Positions 6,126 through 52,946 of a DNA stretch of 64,000 nt are shown here, piece after piece (position 1 is the first letter of the stretch; each line of letters opens with the position of its first letter). The position numbers and the translations under genes are program-made. The DNA lies in assembly GCA_900314495.1 (NCBI GenBank), contig OMVJ01000007.1, positions 1 through 64,000 of the forward strand. The letters run 5' to 3'. The DNA comes from an uncultured Olsenella sp. Its GTDB lineage: Bacteria; Actinomycetota; Coriobacteriia; Coriobacteriales; Atopobiaceae. The notes under the pieces are model-generated. The model searched no databases. It saw nothing but the letters and a program-made list of their open reading frames with translations, and had not been told where the DNA came from.

Positions 6126-6167
6126 ACCTTGCTCCTTCCCCATTGCTTCCCTTCCAAGACGCGGAGG

Positions 6168-6701
6168 CTAGAGTCCCCTCGCGTCAGCGAATGGCCAGAA
6201 AATGAACGTTGCCCGCGACGTGACGTTGCTCACGGGAACCGCCCCGAAGTACCGGGAGTCCTTCGAGTTGGTTCTGTTGTCACCCATGACCCAGATGCAG
6301 CCGTCGGGCACCGTATAAGGATACGTTATTCCATACGGAGTCTGCAGGGGCTCGCTCGGTTTTCCAAGGGTGTAGTCCTCGTCCTGGGCAAGGCCGTCTA
6401 TGTAGAGGACGCCGTCCCGCAGGTCCACGGTCTGCCCCTCCGTGGCAATGACGCGCTTTATGAGCGTCGTGCCAGGCTGGATTGGGTCGTCGAAGGTGAC
6501 GACCTCCCCCGCCTCGGGTTCGCGGAAGTGGAACGAGACCTTCTCGCCAACCAGCCGGTCGCCCTCCTGGATGGTCTCCAGCATGGAGCCGGAGGGCACT
6601 ATGTACACCTCCGCCACGAATGCCCTGAACAGGAAGGCAATCACGACCGCCGCGACGAGCACGACCACCCACTCAAGGACGCCCTTCAGCTTCTCGCCCA
6701 T
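6168..6701 (-). CDS. lepB: Signal peptidase I
   Basis: 177-aa membrane serine protease that removes Sec/Tat signal peptides. An N-terminal membrane segment (about residues 7-27) is followed by box B VPSGSMLETIQEGD with the catalytic Ser. Box D contains the general-base Lys in TLIKRVIATEGQ, and box E is GDNRTNSKDSR. Single-TM Gram-positive type. Its ATG overlaps the end of trmD by 16 nt, so it is coupled to the rpsP-khpA-rimM-trmD operon, in the position where many bacteria carry rplS. Confidence 0.95.
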   Translation of the reverse strand: MGEKLKGVLEWVVVLVAAVVIAFLFRAFVAEVYIVPSGSMLETIQEGDRLVGEKVSFHFREPEAGEVVTFDDPIQPGTTLIKRVIATEGQTVDLRDGVLYIDGLAQDEDYTLGKPSEPLQTPYGITYPYTVPDGCIWVMGDNRTNSKDSRYFGAVPVSNVTSRATFIFWPFADARGL

Positions 6702-7459
6702 TCGTCCCCACCTCCGTCCAGGACCGCACGCGAGCCGTCCACCAGCTCCGCGGCATACGCCCGCTCCTCCTCCGTGAGCTCCGCGGACTCCAGCAGGTCT
6801 GGCCTCCACCTGAGCGTACGCTCTATGGCGTTCCTTCTGCGCCACTCCCGGATGGCCTGGTGGTCACCCGAGAGAAGCACCTCCGGCACGCGCCGTCCAT
6901 CATAGTCCGCGGGCCGCGTGTACTGCTCGTACTCCAGCAGCCCGTCCGAAAAGGATTCGTCCTTGGCGCTCATGTCGTCGCCCAGGGCTCCGGGCAGCAG
7001 GCGAACCACCGCGTCCACCACCACCATGGCGGCAAGCTCGCCGCCCGTGAGCACGTAGTCGCCCAGCGAGAACACCTCGTCAGCCAGACTGTACGCCCGC
7101 TCGTCCATGCCCTCGTACCTGCCGCACACCAGGAGCACTCGCTCCTGCTGCGCAAGACGCTCCGCCGCGCGCTGGTCGAAGCGGGCCCCGCAGGGCGAGA
7201 AGAAGACCACGTGCGGCCGGACCTCCCCGCGGGACGAGATGTCGCGCACGGCCTCGAATATTGGCGCGGGCTTCATGAGCATGCCCTGGCCGCCGCCGAA
7301 CGGGGCGTCATCCACCGTGCGGTGCCGGTCGTGCGTCCAGTCACGCAGGTCGTAGGCTACAAACTCCCAGATGCCCTTCTTCTGGGCCCGACCCAGGATG
7401 GAGGCGTCGAAGTACTGGCCGAAGACCCCGGGGAAGACCGAGAGCGTCTCGAACCTCAT
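6686..7459 (-). CDS. trmD: tRNA (guanine37-N1)-methyltransferase
   Basis: 257-aa SPOUT methyltransferase that makes m1G37 in tRNAs reading CUN, CCN and CGG codons; it prevents +1 frameshifting. Visible are the N-terminal start MRFETLSVFPGVF, the knot region VCGRYEGMDER, SLGDYVLTGGELA, and the C-terminal domain with PEVLLSGDHQAIREWRR. The start overlaps the rimM stop by 4 nt (ATGA). Length is slightly above the usual 240-250 because of a short acidic tail. Confidence 0.97.
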   Translation of the reverse strand: MRFETLSVFPGVFGQYFDASILGRAQKKGIWEFVAYDLRDWTHDRHRTVDDAPFGGGQGMLMKPAPIFEAVRDISSRGEVRPHVVFFSPCGARFDQRAAERLAQQERVLLVCGRYEGMDERAYSLADEVFSLGDYVLTGGELAAMVVVDAVVRLLPGALGDDMSAKDESFSDGLLEYEQYTRPADYDGRRVPEVLLSGDHQAIREWRRRNAIERTLRWRPDLLESAELTEEERAYAAELVDGSRAVLDGGGDEWARS

Positions 7460-7992
7460 TGCGCACCACCGTCCTGAATCAGGCCGCCGAGGAAGCCCTG
7501 CGGCATGTGGGTGAGAATGTCCCCCGCGGGTGCGACCTCGGACACCACGTCTGGTATGACGGGCAGAAGGACCTCCCCGAAGGGGCCCTCCAGCACCCAC
7601 ACGTCGTTGGCGGGGCCCTGCATCACCTCTTCCACCGTGCCCAGGGGGCCATAGGTCTCGTCCTCCACCCGGCGCCCCAACAGTGAGTTGGGGTCGTGCA
7701 GGGCGAGGTCTGCGGGAAGCTGGTCCACGGGGGCAAGGACGGTCTTGCCGACCAGCCCTTCCGCCGCGTTCAGGTCCGTCACGCCGGTAAGGCCAACGAG
7801 CTGGCCGTTCTGCTGGTCAGAGACGGAGACCACCCTGTGGAAGCGGTTTCCCTTTAGGGAGGGAGGAACCAGGGCGACGTCGAGCCCCTCCTCCAACAAG
7901 AAGGGAAGGCCGTGGACGGGAACCGCCACGACCTCCCCCCTTTTACCATGTGTTTTGGTCACGCGGGCAATGGCCCTGTATTCAACGCGCAA
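7456..7992 (-). CDS. rimM: Ribosome maturation factor RimM
   Basis: 178-aa 30S maturation factor that binds S19 and helps assemble the 16S 3' domain. The N-terminal beta-barrel starts IARVTKTHGKRGEVVAV; the PRC-barrel half includes LLGRRVEDETYGPLGTVEEV and LLPVIPDVV. The best start is the TTG at 7992, preceded by a GGGG-rich site and placed 5 nt after khpA. It overlaps trmD by 4 nt, in the conserved rpsP-khpA-rimM-trmD order. Confidence 0.94.
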   Translation of the reverse strand: MRVEYRAIARVTKTHGKRGEVVAVPVHGLPFLLEEGLDVALVPPSLKGNRFHRVVSVSDQQNGQLVGLTGVTDLNAAEGLVGKTVLAPVDQLPADLALHDPNSLLGRRVEDETYGPLGTVEEVMQGPANDVWVLEGPFGEVLLPVIPDVVSEVAPAGDILTHMPQGFLGGLIQDGGAQ

Positions 7993-16731: not shown

Positions 16732-17478
16732 CTAGAAGGCAACGCCCATCGCGATGACGCCCACGCACAGGACAAACATTGCAACGTCCCGTCCCTTGAA
16801 GGGGTAGGTGCGGTAGCTGGACTCCCGCGTGCGCAGGTAGAAGCCCCGCTCCTCTGCCGCCAGGGCGGTGTCGTCCGCCTTGCTCACGGACGAGATGAGC
16901 AGCGGCGCCGCCATGGGCAGCATGAGCTTGAGGCGCGTGAAGGGATTCTTGGAGTCGTACTCCACGCCGCGGGCGGTCTGTGCCTCCATGATCTCTCCCA
17001 TGGAACGCGAGAAGATGGGCACGAAGCGAAGGGCCGTGGTTATGGTGAAGGCATAGCGGTACGGGATGTGCAGCACGCTCACGCAGGCGTTGGCCAGGTC
17101 CGTGAGGGGCGTGAGCGTCAGCATGAGCATGAGCGGCATGGCAAAGGTCAGCAGGCGCAGGGCCACGTGGGCGCCAGTGTCTATGCCCCGGTCCGTGACG
17201 AAGGCGACCACCGGCGTGCCGTCGCGCACGATAATCACCTGCAGCACGAACATGAACAGGGCCAGGACCGTGAAGGCCCCCAGCATGGAGAAGGTCTTCC
17301 TCCCTATGCCCGCGTACACGCCCACCGCGCACACCAGCGCCAGAAGGCCGACCAGCATGACGTAGCCGTTGGCGAAGAAGGTCGCCATGCAGACGCTGAT
17401 GGCGAAGGCGACCTTGGTGATGGGGTTCAGCCTGTGGAAGAGGGAGTCTCCCGGCGCGTAGTCGATGATGCTAGCCAC
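16732..17478 (-). CDS. ecfT: ECF transporter transmembrane subunit EcfT
   Basis: 248-aa scaffold subunit that couples ATP hydrolysis to S-component toppling. Four to five membrane segments come first. The two cytoplasmic coupling helices carry the EcfT Ala-Arg-Gly type motifs, seen as AQTARGVE and AAEERGF. It overlaps the fused S-A-A gene by 8 nt, so it is translationally coupled. The protein contains no tryptophan. As the third gene behind the trp leader it should be expressed with the tryptophan S component. Confidence 0.94.
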   Translation of the reverse strand: MASIIDYAPGDSLFHRLNPITKVAFAISVCMATFFANGYVMLVGLLALVCAVGVYAGIGRKTFSMLGAFTVLALFMFVLQVIIVRDGTPVVAFVTDRGIDTGAHVALRLLTFAMPLMLMLTLTPLTDLANACVSVLHIPYRYAFTITTALRFVPIFSRSMGEIMEAQTARGVEYDSKNPFTRLKLMLPMAAPLLISSVSKADDTALAAEERGFYLRTRESSYRTYPFKGRDVAMFVLCVGVIAMGVAF

Positions 17479-19909
17479 GATCTGCCAACCTTTCCGTTAC
17501 CTCTACAATGTCGTGCACCTCGGTGAGGCCCAGGTACGAGGGGGACACCCTCCGGCCCAGCTCCTCCGAGAGCTGCACCATCTGCGGCGCGGCCACGTAC
17601 GCCTGCGCCATCAGCTCCCCTTGGCGGAAGAGGTCCGAGGGCAGCCCGTCCGCCAGGATGCGGCCGTCGGCCATGACAATGAGGCGCGTGGCGAAGTCCG
17701 CCGCCACCTCCATGTCGTGGCAGACCATGACCACGGCGCAGCCGCGCTCTCGGGCGGCGTTCACGGCGTCCATGACCACCATGCACTCGCGGTAGTCAAG
17801 GCCGCTGGTCGGCTCGTCCAGAATCAGCACGCGGGGCTCCGTCACGATGACCGAGGCCAGAGCCACTATCTGGCGCTGCCCGCGCGAGAGCGCGAAGGGA
17901 GCCGCATCCTCCGGCAGGCCGAAGCGGGCAATGACCTCCCGGGCACGGCACTGGGCCTCCTCCGTCTGCACGCCCAGGAGCTCCAGCGAGAAGGCCACCT
18001 CCTCCAGCACCGTGTTCTTGCAGATCTGCCGGTCCGGGTTCTGGAACAGGGTGGAGACGTAGCGGGCGATCTCGCTGGTGCGGACCTGGGACGTGTCGCA
18101 GCCGGCGATGACCACCCTGCCGCTGGCGGGCTTGAGCAGGCCGTTCATGAGCTTGGTGGCCGTGGTCTTGCCAGCGCCGTTCTGGCCCACGATGCCAACC
18201 AGCTCCCCCGGGCGCGCCTGGAAGGTGAGGTCCGTCACGGACGCCTGGCCTGCGCCGTAGGAGAAGCCCACGTGGTCGAAGACCAGCACCGGCTCCTCTC
18301 CCCCTGCGGCCACGACGGGAGCGGTGGAGGCATACTCCACCGTCTTCCGGGCGTTGCCTCCCACGACGCGCCCGATGAGGGCCGCCGTCTCCGGAACGGT
18401 GACGCAGACCTCGTTCCTGGGGGTGAGCCCGTCCGCGAACAGCTTGTTGGAGACGCGCGTGGTGCGCGGGCAGTCCACGCCCAGCTTGCGCAGCTCGCCC
18501 GCGTGCGCCAGCACCTGCCGAGGGCTGCCGTCGAAGGCGATCCTGCCCTCGGAGACCACCAGCATGCGCTTGCAGAACTCCGTGAGGAGGGCCACCTTCT
18601 GCTCTATGACGACCACCGTGATGCCCTCGCGCTCGTTGAGGCGGCGCAGGGTCTCGAACACCGTGCGTGAGGAGGCGGGGTCCAAGGCGGCCGTGGGCTC
18701 GTCCAGCACCATCACGCTGGGATGCAGGGCCAGGATGGCCGCGATGGCCACCTTCTGCTTCTGCCCGCCGGACAGCGTGGCAATCTCCCTGTCGCGCAGG
18801 TCGGCGATGCCCACCGTGTTCAGGGCGTCGGAGACCACGCCTGGGATCTTATCGTGCGGGACGCCGAAGTTCTCCAGGCCGTACAGGAGCTCGTCCTCCA
18901 CGTTGGAGGCGACCATCTGGGCGTCTATGTCCTGCAGGACCGACCCCACCACCCGCGAGACGTCCGTGAGCGAGATGGTGCACGTGTCCCTGCCGTCCAC
19001 ATAGGCCGCACCGAAGAGGTCACCGGCATAGTGGTGCGGGATGGCACCCGCGAGCACCGCGGCCAGGGTCGTCTTGCCGGCACCGGAAGGGCCGATTACG
19101 CCCACGAACTCCCCGCGGCGGACCTCAAGCGAGACGTGGTCCAGGCCGCGGTGGCCCGACTCGTCGTACACGAACGAGACGTCGTCCAGCCTGATGACGG
19201 CATCCCCGCCGCCCGGCGCTGGGCCGGCAACGGGCGCCACCACGGGAGCGGGGCCCTCCTGCGGTGCCACGTCCCCACGCGCGGGCTCATCCGCGGCCTT
19301 GGCCGACGCCTGCCGCTGGCCCTGCTGCGCCTGGCCCTGCACCCTGGCGCGACTGAAGCGCGCAACCACGGCCTTGAGCGGCACGTAGAGGGCCTGCACC
19401 ACCACGGCGTTGGCGACGGCGGTGCCGAAGACCACCGGGAACATGACCACGATGTTCTGGATGGGCGCCCGCAGCACCACCAGCGTGGAGACGCTTGCGA
19501 AGATGAGGCCGGAGACGACCGTGGTCACGAAGGCAACCACCAGCGGCGCGACGCCGCGGGCGCGAGACCTCAGGAGCGCATGGGCCAGAAGGCCGCAGAC
19601 TATGGACGCCGGGAAGTCGCACAGGTACTCCAGAAGGGGCACCGAGGTCGTGATCTGGATGACGGTCGCTCCCAGCATGCCGATGACCAGCGCCTGGGGA
19701 ACGCCGGGCTCCAGCAGGAGTATGGCCAGGCACACCGACGAGAGCACGAACTCCGGTTGGATGCCCGTCACCGACAGCGCCTTGCCCACCGTGAGGTTGA
19801 GGATGAACCCCGCCGCGAGCAGGATTGCCACCAGGATGAGGGCCGAGACGTCCAGGCGCTGCCGCGTCTGCCGCCCCTGGCCTTCGTTCACACCGTTGCC
19901 ATGTGCCAT
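17471..19909 (-). CDS. Fused ECF protein: TrpP-like S domain plus two ABC ATPase domains
   Basis: 812 aa in three parts. Residues about 20-190 form a membrane domain that aligns along its length with the free S component encoded just upstream (LVAILLAAGFILNLTVG, QPEF, ITTSVP, VTTVVSGLIFA). An Ala/Gln/Pro linker (190-245) follows. ATPase 1 (about 248-480) has Walker A GPSGAGKTT near 273, LSGGQKQ and MVLDEPTAALD. ATPase 2 (about 550-770) has GQNGAGKTT near 575, a variant signature LSRGQRQ, LILDEPTSGLD and H-loop CHDME; ATPase 1 has Gln in place of the H-loop His (VVIEQK). ATG 19909 is chosen because GGAGG lies 8 nt upstream; a TTG 15 nt earlier is in frame. There is no tryptophan in the entire chain. 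The S domain may form a mixed pair with the free S protein or recognise a second substrate. Confidence 0.9.
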   Translation of the reverse strand: MAHGNGVNEGQGRQTRQRLDVSALILVAILLAAGFILNLTVGKALSVTGIQPEFVLSSVCLAILLLEPGVPQALVIGMLGATVIQITTSVPLLEYLCDFPASIVCGLLAHALLRSRARGVAPLVVAFVTTVVSGLIFASVSTLVVLRAPIQNIVVMFPVVFGTAVANAVVVQALYVPLKAVVARFSRARVQGQAQQGQRQASAKAADEPARGDVAPQEGPAPVVAPVAGPAPGGGDAVIRLDDVSFVYDESGHRGLDHVSLEVRRGEFVGVIGPSGAGKTTLAAVLAGAIPHHYAGDLFGAAYVDGRDTCTISLTDVSRVVGSVLQDIDAQMVASNVEDELLYGLENFGVPHDKIPGVVSDALNTVGIADLRDREIATLSGGQKQKVAIAAILALHPSVMVLDEPTAALDPASSRTVFETLRRLNEREGITVVVIEQKVALLTEFCKRMLVVSEGRIAFDGSPRQVLAHAGELRKLGVDCPRTTRVSNKLFADGLTPRNEVCVTVPETAALIGRVVGGNARKTVEYASTAPVVAAGGEEPVLVFDHVGFSYGAGQASVTDLTFQARPGELVGIVGQNGAGKTTATKLMNGLLKPASGRVVIAGCDTSQVRTSEIARYVSTLFQNPDRQICKNTVLEEVAFSLELLGVQTEEAQCRAREVIARFGLPEDAAPFALSRGQRQIVALASVIVTEPRVLILDEPTSGLDYRECMVVMDAVNAARERGCAVVMVCHDMEVAADFATRLIVMADGRILADGLPSDLFRQGELMAQAYVAAPQMVQLSEELGRRVSPSYLGLTEVHDIVEVTERLADRG

Positions 19910-19922
19910 GCCTTTGTCCTCC

Positions 19923-19949
19923 AAAAAGGGCCGGCCCTTGCGGCCGGCC
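19923..19949 (-). terminator. Intercistronic hairpin with T tract, possible partial terminator
   Basis: Self-complementary GGCCGGCC arms (19929-19936 and 19942-19949) around a 5-nt loop are followed on the minus strand by CTTTTT. The hairpin sits between the free S component and the fused S-A-A gene, directly before the latter's ribosome site. It may lower downstream expression so that free S component exceeds the ATPase/T module. Confidence 0.65.
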
Positions 19950-19975
19950 TCCCAACGAGCCGATGAACTACTTTA

Positions 19976-20524
19976 TTACTTCTTCTTCGTGGCGATGCTC
20001 AGGGGCTTGACCAGGGCCTGGACCACGATGGCGTTGAATGCCGCGGTGCCGAAGACGATGGGCAGCTTCACCACGATGTTCGCCATGGGGGCGCCCATGA
20101 CGATGTTGCCGCCAGCGGCGAACAGCAGGCCGGACACCAGGGTGGTGACGAAGGCCGCAACAAGGGGCATGACCTTGGTGTTCTTGAGGGCGCTGCGGGT
20201 GAGCGCGAACATCACCAGGGCACCGACGGACTCCGTGAGGAAGTTGAGGCCGGGGATGGAGGTGGTGAGCTGGATGACCACGGCCGTGAGCAGGCCGATG
20301 ATCACGGACTGCGCGGCGGAGGCGTCAAGCAGAAGGATTGCCAGGCAGTAGGCCGCAATCAGGAACTGCGGCTTGATGCCCACGATGCCCAGGGCGTTGC
20401 CCAGGGTGAGGTTGAGGATGAAGCCCGCGGCGAGGAGGATTGCCACGAGGACGAGCGATGCGACGTCGAACGTGCTCTTGGAGCTGTTGCTGGTGACCTT
20501 GCGTGCCTGTTCCTGCTGTGCCAT
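19976..20524 (-). CDS. ECF transporter S component, TrpP-like (probable tryptophan)
   Basis: 182-aa membrane protein with about six segments. It resembles the TrpP family by length, by GIKPQF followed by an ILLLD segment, and by IQLTTSIPGLN in the next loop. The trp-type leader and attenuator directly upstream is independent evidence for tryptophan as substrate. The protein contains no tryptophan residue. ATG 20524 has AAGGGA upstream. Substrate binding is inferred, not shown. Confidence 0.85.
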   Translation of the reverse strand: MAQQEQARKVTSNSSKSTFDVASLVLVAILLAAGFILNLTLGNALGIVGIKPQFLIAAYCLAILLLDASAAQSVIIGLLTAVVIQLTTSIPGLNFLTESVGALVMFALTRSALKNTKVMPLVAAFVTTLVSGLLFAAGGNIVMGAPMANIVVKLPIVFGTAAFNAIVVQALVKPLSIATKKK

Positions 20525-20600: not shown

Positions 20601-20629
20601 AAAAAAGCCCCCGGTCGCAACCGGGAGCT
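20601..20629 (-). terminator. Tryptophan attenuator terminator
   Basis: A 10-bp stem with one G-U pair (arms 20606-20615 and 20620-20629) has a 4-nt loop and is followed on the minus strand by TTTTTT. It lies 28 nt after the stop of the leader peptide and 77 nt before the S-component ATG. Upstream alternatives on the minus strand are a hairpin beginning inside the Trp codons (GGAC 20689-20686 with GTCC 20657-20654, plus inner CAG/CTG) and a TTCGC/GCGAA pairing (20653-20649 with 20634-20630) that reaches the base of the terminator. Confidence 0.88.
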
Positions 20630-20657
20630 TTCGCAAACAAGTGCATGCGCGAAGGAC

Positions 20658-20738
20658 TCACAGCCGACCGACTGAGGGCATACGGGTCCACCACCAGTTC
20701 ATGCTCATGCGCTCGTACGACGCGACGATGCAGGCCAT
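20658..20738 (-). CDS. Trp leader peptide (three consecutive Trp codons)
   Basis: 26-codon reading frame with a strong ribosome site (GGGGAG, 6 nt before ATG 20738), ending in TGA at 20658-20660. Codons 15-17 (20688-20696) are TGG TGG TGG within MNWWWTR. The Trp codons abut the 5' strand of the first leader hairpin, as expected for ribosome-stalling attenuation. It precedes the terminator at 20601-20629 and the TrpP-like ECF transporter. It encodes a regulatory peptide of no expected function of its own. Confidence 0.88.
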   Translation of the reverse strand: MACIVASYERMSMNWWWTRMPSVGRL

Positions 20739-51893: not shown

Positions 51894-52946
51894 ATGCCCA
51901 ATGAGGGAAGCTACGAGGCGGCGCTCAGGCGCAGCCAGGAGATTGAGGCCGACATTGAGGCCGGCAACGTTGGCAAGTACGTCATGCTCACGGGCGACCG
52001 CCCAACCGGCCGCCTGCACATGGGCCACTACTTTGGCACCATCAAGGAGCGCGTCCGCCTGCAGAACCTGGGCGTCAACACCAACATCATCATCGCCGAC
52101 TACCAGGTGATCACTGACCGCGACACCACGGAGCACATCCAGGACAACGTGTACAACATGGTCATGGACTACATGGCCTGCGGCATTGACCCCCAGAAGA
52201 CCATGATCTACACCCACTCCGCCGTGCCGGCAGAGAACCAGCTCATGCTGCCCTTCCTCTCGCTGGTGACTGAGGCGGAGATGGAGCGCAACCCCACCGT
52301 CAAGGCCGAGCAGATCGCCTCCGGCCACGCGCTGACGGGCCTGCTCCTCACCTACCCCGTGCACCAGGCGTGCGACATCCTGTTCTGCAAGGGCAACATC
52401 GTGCCCGTGGGCCGCGACCAGCTCCCCCACATTGAAATCACGTCCAAGATCGCCCGCCGCTTCAACGAGCGCTACGGCAAGGTCTTCCCGGAGGTCGCGG
52501 GTCTGCTCACCTCCACGCCCCTCATTCCCGGCCTGGACGGCCGCAAGATGAGCAAGTCCTACGGCAACGCCATCTCCATCTCCATGACGGAGCAGGAGAC
52601 CGCCAAGCTCATCAAGAAGTCCAAGACGGACTCGGAGCGCTTCATCACCTTCGACCCGGAGAACCGCCCCGGCGTGTCCGCCCTGCTCATCACCGCCGGC
52701 ATCTGCAGCGGCCGCGACCCCAAGGAGATTGCGGACGAGATTGGCAACGGAGGCTCCGGCCAGCTGAAGAAGTACACCACCCAGGTGGTGAACGACTACT
52801 TCGCGCCCATTCGCGAGCGTCGTCACCAGTACGAGAACGACCTGGACTACGTGAAGGACGTCCTGCACGACGGCAACCGTCGCGCCAACGAGATTGCCGA
52901 GAAGACCCTCTGCGAGGTTCGCGAGGCGATGGGCATGGTGTACTAG
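51894..52946 (+). CDS. trpS: Tryptophanyl-tRNA synthetase
   Basis: 350-aa class I synthetase. HIGH variant RLHMGHYFGTIKERV, KMSKS as DGRKMSKSYGNAI, and VGRDQLPHIEIT. The protein itself contains no tryptophan. ATG 51894 has GGAG 6 nt upstream. No Trp leader or T-box is visible in the 82-nt gap before it. arcA follows 42 nt downstream on the same strand. Confidence 0.96.
   Translation: MPNEGSYEAALRRSQEIEADIEAGNVGKYVMLTGDRPTGRLHMGHYFGTIKERVRLQNLGVNTNIIIADYQVITDRDTTEHIQDNVYNMVMDYMACGIDPQKTMIYTHSAVPAENQLMLPFLSLVTEAEMERNPTVKAEQIASGHALTGLLLTYPVHQACDILFCKGNIVPVGRDQLPHIEITSKIARRFNERYGKVFPEVAGLLTSTPLIPGLDGRKMSKSYGNAISISMTEQETAKLIKKSKTDSERFITFDPENRPGVSALLITAGICSGRDPKEIADEIGNGGSGQLKKYTTQVVNDYFAPIRERRHQYENDLDYVKDVLHDGNRRANEIAEKTLCEVREAMGMVY

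Follow-up and report, generated by a model that had tools for sequence, protein, structure and literature searches.

Enzymes that bring the shortage of an amino acid to an end tend to contain less of that amino acid, a tendency known as cognate bias; for tryptophan (Trp), one of the clearest examples, low contents have been reported in almost every genome (PMC4209129, which cites Alves and Savageau 2005 and Yanofsky 1988 on the subject). Trp-responsive attenuators have been described ahead of the trp operons and trpS of Corynebacterium and Streptomyces (PMC1262725), and T-boxes have been described ahead of Trp transporter genes (PMC9382623, PMC2494555). In this work, we analyzed a window of 64,000 nucleotides, i.e., the whole stretch of DNA from an uncultured Olsenella sp., in which an operon on the minus strand encodes a predicted Trp importer of the energy-coupling factor (ECF) type. 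The operon codes for a free S component, for a fusion of another S component with two EcfA ATPases (S-A-A), and for EcfT. None of these proteins contains Trp, and their genes are preceded by a leader peptide with three consecutive Trp codons (WWW). The reading that we favor, with a probability of about 0.72, is cognate bias acting on an importer: selection against Trp codons in a system that must be built during Trp shortage.

Tryptophan content of the importer and of its genome

The free S component (19976-20524, 182 amino acids, aa), S-A-A (17471-19909, 812 aa) and EcfT, a member of the CbiQ family (16732-17478, 248 aa), are all encoded on the minus strand, and their coordinates and Trp counts were as given in the first-pass annotation, with 0 Trp in 1,242 residues. 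The mean Trp content of a genome sample, 1.14%, predicts ~14 Trp in these residues, and matched ECF controls predict ~8.7. This sample comprised 413 open reading frames (ORFs) and 150,001 residues, drawn from 40 stretches of the genome in addition to the window; the ORFs were called with a home-made gene caller, and some antisense ORFs were admitted. Trp-free ORFs of the length of S (8/29 at 182-219 aa) or EcfT (5/46 at 220-279 aa) were common in the sample; thus, neither protein is striking on its own. In contrast, proteins of the size of the fusion were rarely Trp-free: none among the 24 ORFs of 600-799 aa, and 2/16 of those of at least 800 aa, S-A-A being one of the two. The other, at 43-2559 of the window (838 aa), has no Pfam match and runs antisense to a credible coding frame, and it was therefore taken as spurious; the opposite frame is presumably pyruvate-phosphate-dikinase-like, as judged from its resemblance to such sequences. 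The comparison by length consequently leaves S and EcfT alone unremarkable, whereas the absence of Trp is exceptional for the S-A-A fusion and for the combination of the three proteins.

Other genes of the window contain several Trp codons, as the first-pass annotation had remarked: 6 in RodA, 7 in aconitase and 4 in arginine deiminase. Within the importer genes, TGG is missing in frame 0 only, and its frequency in frames 1 and 2 is ordinary, which indicates that the target is the amino acid and not the DNA. A DNA-level cause of the loss of TGG was ruled out on the basis of these ordinary out-of-frame counts.

Trp absence in orthologous importers

Homologues of S were found in 69/140 genomes of the window's family. 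A first set consisted of 40 loci around S homologues plus the window, and a named set of 80 loci (from Olsenella, Collinsella, Thermophilibacter, Enorma, Slackia and others). A class-wide search located relatives in 164/296 genomes, and 20 of these loci were examined, 19 from one other family and 1 from a third family. Pooled over the three families of Coriobacteriia, 159/167 S and 92/102 paired ATPases were Trp-free, and EcfT contained 1-3 Trp in 88/120 sequences; the pooled counts include neither the paired ATPases (AA) of locus L272, with 6 Trp after a frame-breaking ambiguous base, nor the 37 ATPase ORFs found at the class-wide loci.

Trp was absent from 53/55 S domains (2 Trp in 10,290 residues), 31/36 paired ATPases (5 in 21,371) and 4/38 EcfT (44 in 9,428) of the first set, in which EcfT was scored in 37/40 loci and the window, and the split ATPases of L111 were left out. 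In the named loci, 102/102 S, 71/77 AA and 24/77 EcfT were Trp-free, with 6 of the 11 Trp in AA coming from the broken frame of L272. The 20 class-wide loci had Trp-free proteins in 14/20 S, 33/37 single ATPase ORFs and 5/19 EcfT. Whole operons without any Trp amounted to 2/35 complete ones in the first set (the window not counted), the remaining 33 holding 1-3, and to 21/76 in the named set (L272 left out), the others holding 1-2. No orthologous operon under the leader thus had an ordinary Trp content, as the totals were 0-3 in 35/35 and 0-2 in 76/76.

The general rule is therefore that S and the ATPases are Trp-free and that EcfT has about one Trp, a wholly Trp-free operon being the minority state. 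The Trp residues of EcfT gather at two neighboring positions (V91 and F93 in the window), plus one near residue 232. We also observed that the EcfT Trp, chiefly at one of the two neighboring sites, is usually the sole Trp left in the operon. The first-pass description of the whole transporter as Trp-free accordingly holds for the window's species and a minority of its relatives, and it fails for most EcfT; the proposition that every subunit is generally Trp-free was rejected for this subunit. A search for relatives of S on plasmids found none.

Comparison with other ECF transporters

Other S components (PF12822), EcfT and EcfA domains from the same group of genomes were used as controls, after dropping 2/30 EcfT and 2/30 TrpS for their length and ATPase pieces outside 215-290 aa. 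Trp was present in 30/30 control S, 21/28 control EcfT and 20/29 control EcfA domains. Its content in the importer orthologues versus the controls was 0.02% vs 1.35% for S, 0.02% vs 0.26% for the ATPases and 0.47% vs 0.93% for EcfT. Among the 20 residues, none is depleted nearly as strongly as Trp in S (log2 -5.8, the next residue at -1.7) or in the ATPases (log2 -3.2, the next at -0.8); in EcfT, its depletion ranks second, after that of His.

Gains of Trp were counted by parsimony on FastTree trees, expressed per 1000 inferred changes and compared with the Fisher test. The importer S gained Trp at a rate of 1.02 (4/3,928) vs 8.29 in the controls (10/1,206; p 0.0002), about 8-fold lower. The difference was about 7.5-fold for the ATPases (0.50, 4/7,978, vs 3.77, 5/1,328; p 0.004) and about 2.6-fold for EcfT (5.76, 21/3,647, vs 15.19, 18/1,185; p 0.004). 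For Phe and Tyr, the corresponding rates of gain were within twofold between importer and controls.

Two kinds of putative Trp sensor upstream of the operon

The leader peptide ORF lies at 20658-20738 on the minus strand and has 26 codons from its first ATG, with in-frame inner ATGs; the three consecutive Trp codons of the first-pass annotation were found at 20688-20696. A putative antiterminator half, CGGTC (20666-20670), is located within the last codons of this ORF. It would pair with GACCG (20612-20616), in the 3′ arm of a strong predicted intrinsic terminator formed by a hairpin and a T run (20601-20633). The predicted geometry is that of classical attenuation, as a ribosome on WWW would free CGGTC and a ribosome at the stop codon would cover it.

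In the first set, a WWW leader precedes 35/41 operons; the scan detected 27 of these leaders together with a terminator, the window included, and the other 8 were identified by reading the upstream sequence. Among the exceptions, L094 has WW, and WWW is missing from L079 (near a contig end), L109 (with an RNase P RNA upstream), L110 and L111. At L090, the terminator is kept upstream of S and no leader with a Trp run was found. In the named loci, the WWW leader was present in 78/80, with WW in one and another cut by the contig end. Based on an alignment of 50 of the 78 distinct leaders, the CGGTC-GACCG pairing is possible in 244/250 cells, vs at most 106 in controls slid by 1-3 columns; the core is almost invariant and its covariation is slight. 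Folded alone, the window leader showed non-significant stability (z -0.73). An Rfam scan of the window at the gathering threshold returned one tRNA only, the leader matching no curated family. A pattern search of the genome found no further WWW leader of this form, which indicates that the trp operon is not under such a leader.

Most of the 20 class-wide loci present a different arrangement. Upstream of S, 15 have a T-box-like core (L316-L325, L327-L329, L331 and L332), 4 have a WWW leader, and one, L335, has WAW. At L335, the sole locus with WAW in place of WWW, the S component and the ATPases contain a single Trp each. The six T-box-like leaders that were scanned scored 62.0-73.8 bits against RF00230 (T-box), with E-values of 4e-11 to 3e-14, below the gathering cut-off of 93, and L111 of the first set gave the same picture (66.5 bits, at 1505-1763). 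All six contain UGG at the expected specifier position, which we take to be the specifier from the Rfam alignment and the known organization of T-boxes. Most leaders of this sister family, presumably the Eggerthellaceae, thus look like T-boxes even though they score below the curated cut-off. Judged by sequence, orthologous operons have exchanged their predicted regulator, with Trp-type T-boxes in the sister family and WWW leaders in the window's family.

Predicted function and Trp metabolism

The S component of the window matches PF17099 (TrpP) with 30.1 bits, above the gathering cut-off of 27.2; among five S orthologues tested, three were above this cut-off and two below. The AlphaFold model of S shows six long helices with a mean predicted local distance difference test score of 79. 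Its top six structural matches in the PDB are ECF S components (probability 0.97-1.00, template modeling score 0.51-0.62), although with non-significant E-values (> 0.06). Helix 1 carries AxxxA, which we assume to be a defining motif of S components; its alanines, A28 and A32, are conserved without exception among 19 sequences. Support for this motif is found in PMC11109136. The EcfA domains of S-A-A match TIGR04520 (422.7 bits) and TIGR04521 (402.4 bits), ECF ATPases 1 and 2, respectively, both above the cut-off. EcfT matches PF02361 (CbiQ) with 87.1 bits and the PDB EcfT chains 4hzu_T and 4huq_T with E-values of about 1e-20. The operon has the architecture of an ECF transporter (S, EcfA, EcfA and EcfT), for which ATP-driven uptake is predicted.

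Trp is inferred to be the substrate from the TrpP match, the two kinds of Trp-specific leader and the distribution of trpB, which scored above the cut-off in 12/69 genomes with S vs 32/71 without S (p 0.0005, kinship not corrected). In the window's genome, trpE, G, D, C, F, B and A form one cluster. Their products contain 1, 0, 0, 3, 1, 1 and 0 Trp, respectively, i.e., 6 in ~2,206 residues (the starts being approximate), and these Trp-poor enzymes are an example of the published kind of cognate bias. TrpS, encoded outside the importer operon at 51894-52946 on the plus strand (350 aa), is also Trp-free, as the first-pass annotation had stated, and so are 28/28 relatives kept from the 30 at loci L146-L175.

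Some further features of the importer loci can be mentioned. A strong hairpin followed by a T run, a consensus match only, lies between the S and S-A-A genes on the minus strand (19929-19949); it is possibly a partial terminator that would raise the level of S above that of the ATPases. Fusion of S to both ATPases is shared by the window, L072, L074 and L109, and S is fused to the first ATPase only in L328 and L329. In L103 (genome G036, 6163-7733, minus strand), EcfT directly follows S, and the stretch examined has no ATPase ORF of the importer type. An azaaromatic (yjdF) riboswitch match of 61.9 bits lies near the importer operon of genome G290 (L326, 6152-6252, minus strand).

Discussion

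The proposed mechanism connects the leader with the composition of the proteins. The two TrpP-like S components would bind Trp, and the two EcfA ATPases and one EcfT would drive its uptake. When Trp is plentiful, the ribosome would run through WWW to the leader stop and mask CGGTC, and the terminator would halt transcription. With little charged tRNA-Trp available, the ribosome would stall on WWW, leaving CGGTC to pair with the GACCG in the terminator, and transcription would proceed into the operon. The importer would then be translated while Trp codons are slowest; on this account, S and the ATPases would have been purged of these codons and stayed free of them, and EcfT would have come to contain fewer. 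The depletion, its specificity, its maintenance and the anatomy of the leader were obtained by comparison; that a benefit during starvation is their cause, and that the switch operates in this manner in the cell, is what we infer from them. The interpretation put forward in the first-pass annotation is thus partly supported: the depletion is Trp-specific and confined to the reading frame, it persists through the tree, and orthologues with another kind of predicted Trp sensor show it too. Neither of the outcomes that the annotation had named as contrary to it, ordinary Trp content in orthologues under the leader or an abundance of Trp-free proteins of the fusion's size in the genome, was encountered.

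Several points weigh against this reading. The Trp found in most EcfT implies that a Trp-free importer is not required, and the full trp operon of the window's genome implies that the importer is not its sole source of Trp. EcfA domains are Trp-poor anyway, 9/29 control domains being Trp-free. The control S family is only distantly related to the TrpP-like S and consists partly of one orthologous group. The difference in EcfT gains was non-significant in the smaller first set (p 0.11), and the p-values from the trees take changes as independent, with control families that are smaller. Additionally, the tree test measures later Trp gains only, and since the orthologues form one clade, the original purge may have been a single event.

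This last point leads to the most serious alternative, inherited composition, which we regard as improbable by comparison with cognate bias, while giving it some weight. The founding S, A and T proteins would have happened to be Trp-poor, and this state would have persisted through common ancestry and the constraints of structure, without any starvation-related selection. The single clade of the orthologues and the generally low Trp content of EcfA agree with this idea, as do the conserved Trp sites of EcfT, where Trp appears to be tolerated if it fits. Nevertheless, mere inheritance would hardly predict Trp gain rates 2.6 to 8 times below those of the controls alongside near-ordinary Phe and Tyr gains, nor a depletion seen in three unrelated proteins of one operon, with TrpS Trp-free too.

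The phenomenon could also have two separate causes, for which we see only a slight chance: S would avoid Trp because its pocket and helices handle Trp as a substrate, and the ATPases would be ordinary Trp-poor EcfA. The depletion is indeed strongest in S, and the control EcfA are themselves low in Trp (0.26%), but the paired ATPases are about tenfold below these controls, Trp gains are lowered in EcfT as well, and the T-box-regulated relatives behave alike. A marginally less probable proposal concerns the Trp of EcfT, one residue of which would be kept by selection in most species so that EcfT is finished last in severe starvation. Importer assembly would then be gated by the remaining Trp-tRNA; this translational brake, acting in series with that of the leader, would have been dropped by lineages with a Trp-free EcfT (the window's species and many Collinsella). 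Chance or a Trp-poor genome, which might account for S and EcfT taken singly given their length-matched ORFs, was rejected on the genome-sample counts, both the mean Trp content and the lack of Trp-free ORFs of 600-799 aa, and is contradicted by the repeated Trp absence in the orthologues, so that it is scarcely credible.

Cognate bias acting on the importer would be documented here by comparison with matched controls of the same genome group, for one operon with two different Trp-sensing leaders. The findings also lend support to the view that an ECF importer of common gut Coriobacteriia has Trp as its substrate, and a Trp-free importer offers a clean test bed for the effect of Trp codons on recovery from Trp starvation. 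Among the titles and abstracts of open-license literature, no work was found that deals with cognate bias in an importer, or with a Trp importer of the ECF type or its leader in Coriobacteriia; publications in subscription journals could be missed by this search.

Most likely, the importer represents a new setting for a known principle, with cognate bias extended from biosynthetic enzymes to a multi-subunit importer. Its likeness to the bias described in PMC4209129 is that proteins which end a shortage are low in the cognate residue. However, that study measured the last biosynthetic enzyme and never uses the word "transport" in its main text, whereas here several subunits of an importer are near zero, partly in genomes without trpB. 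The Up-Trp/Down-Trp selection of Chlamydiales (PMC3937554) is similar in that the Trp content of part of the proteome is tuned to Trp supply; it has the opposite sign, since the chlamydial Trp transporter TyrP is reported to be Trp-rich and self-limiting. The WWW leader resembles the actinobacterial trp attenuators in its Trp codons (double or triple UGG in the leader peptides of PMC1262725), GC-rich terminator and putative antiterminator, but it precedes an importer; the terms Coriobacter and Atopobium are absent from PMC1262725. With the TrpP of the Bacillus subtilis type, the S component shares the match to PF17099 above the cut-off, and it differs in being encoded with its own EcfA, EcfA and EcfT and in having a second copy fused to the ATPases. 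Finally, as in the T-box-controlled Trp transporters covered by PMC9382623 and PMC2494555, genes for Trp uptake appear to be under a sensor of Trp-tRNA. The transporters named there are of the ABC, NSS and similar types, mainly in Firmicutes, whereas the system described here is a predicted ECF importer that carries a T-box or a leader peptide, depending on the lineage.

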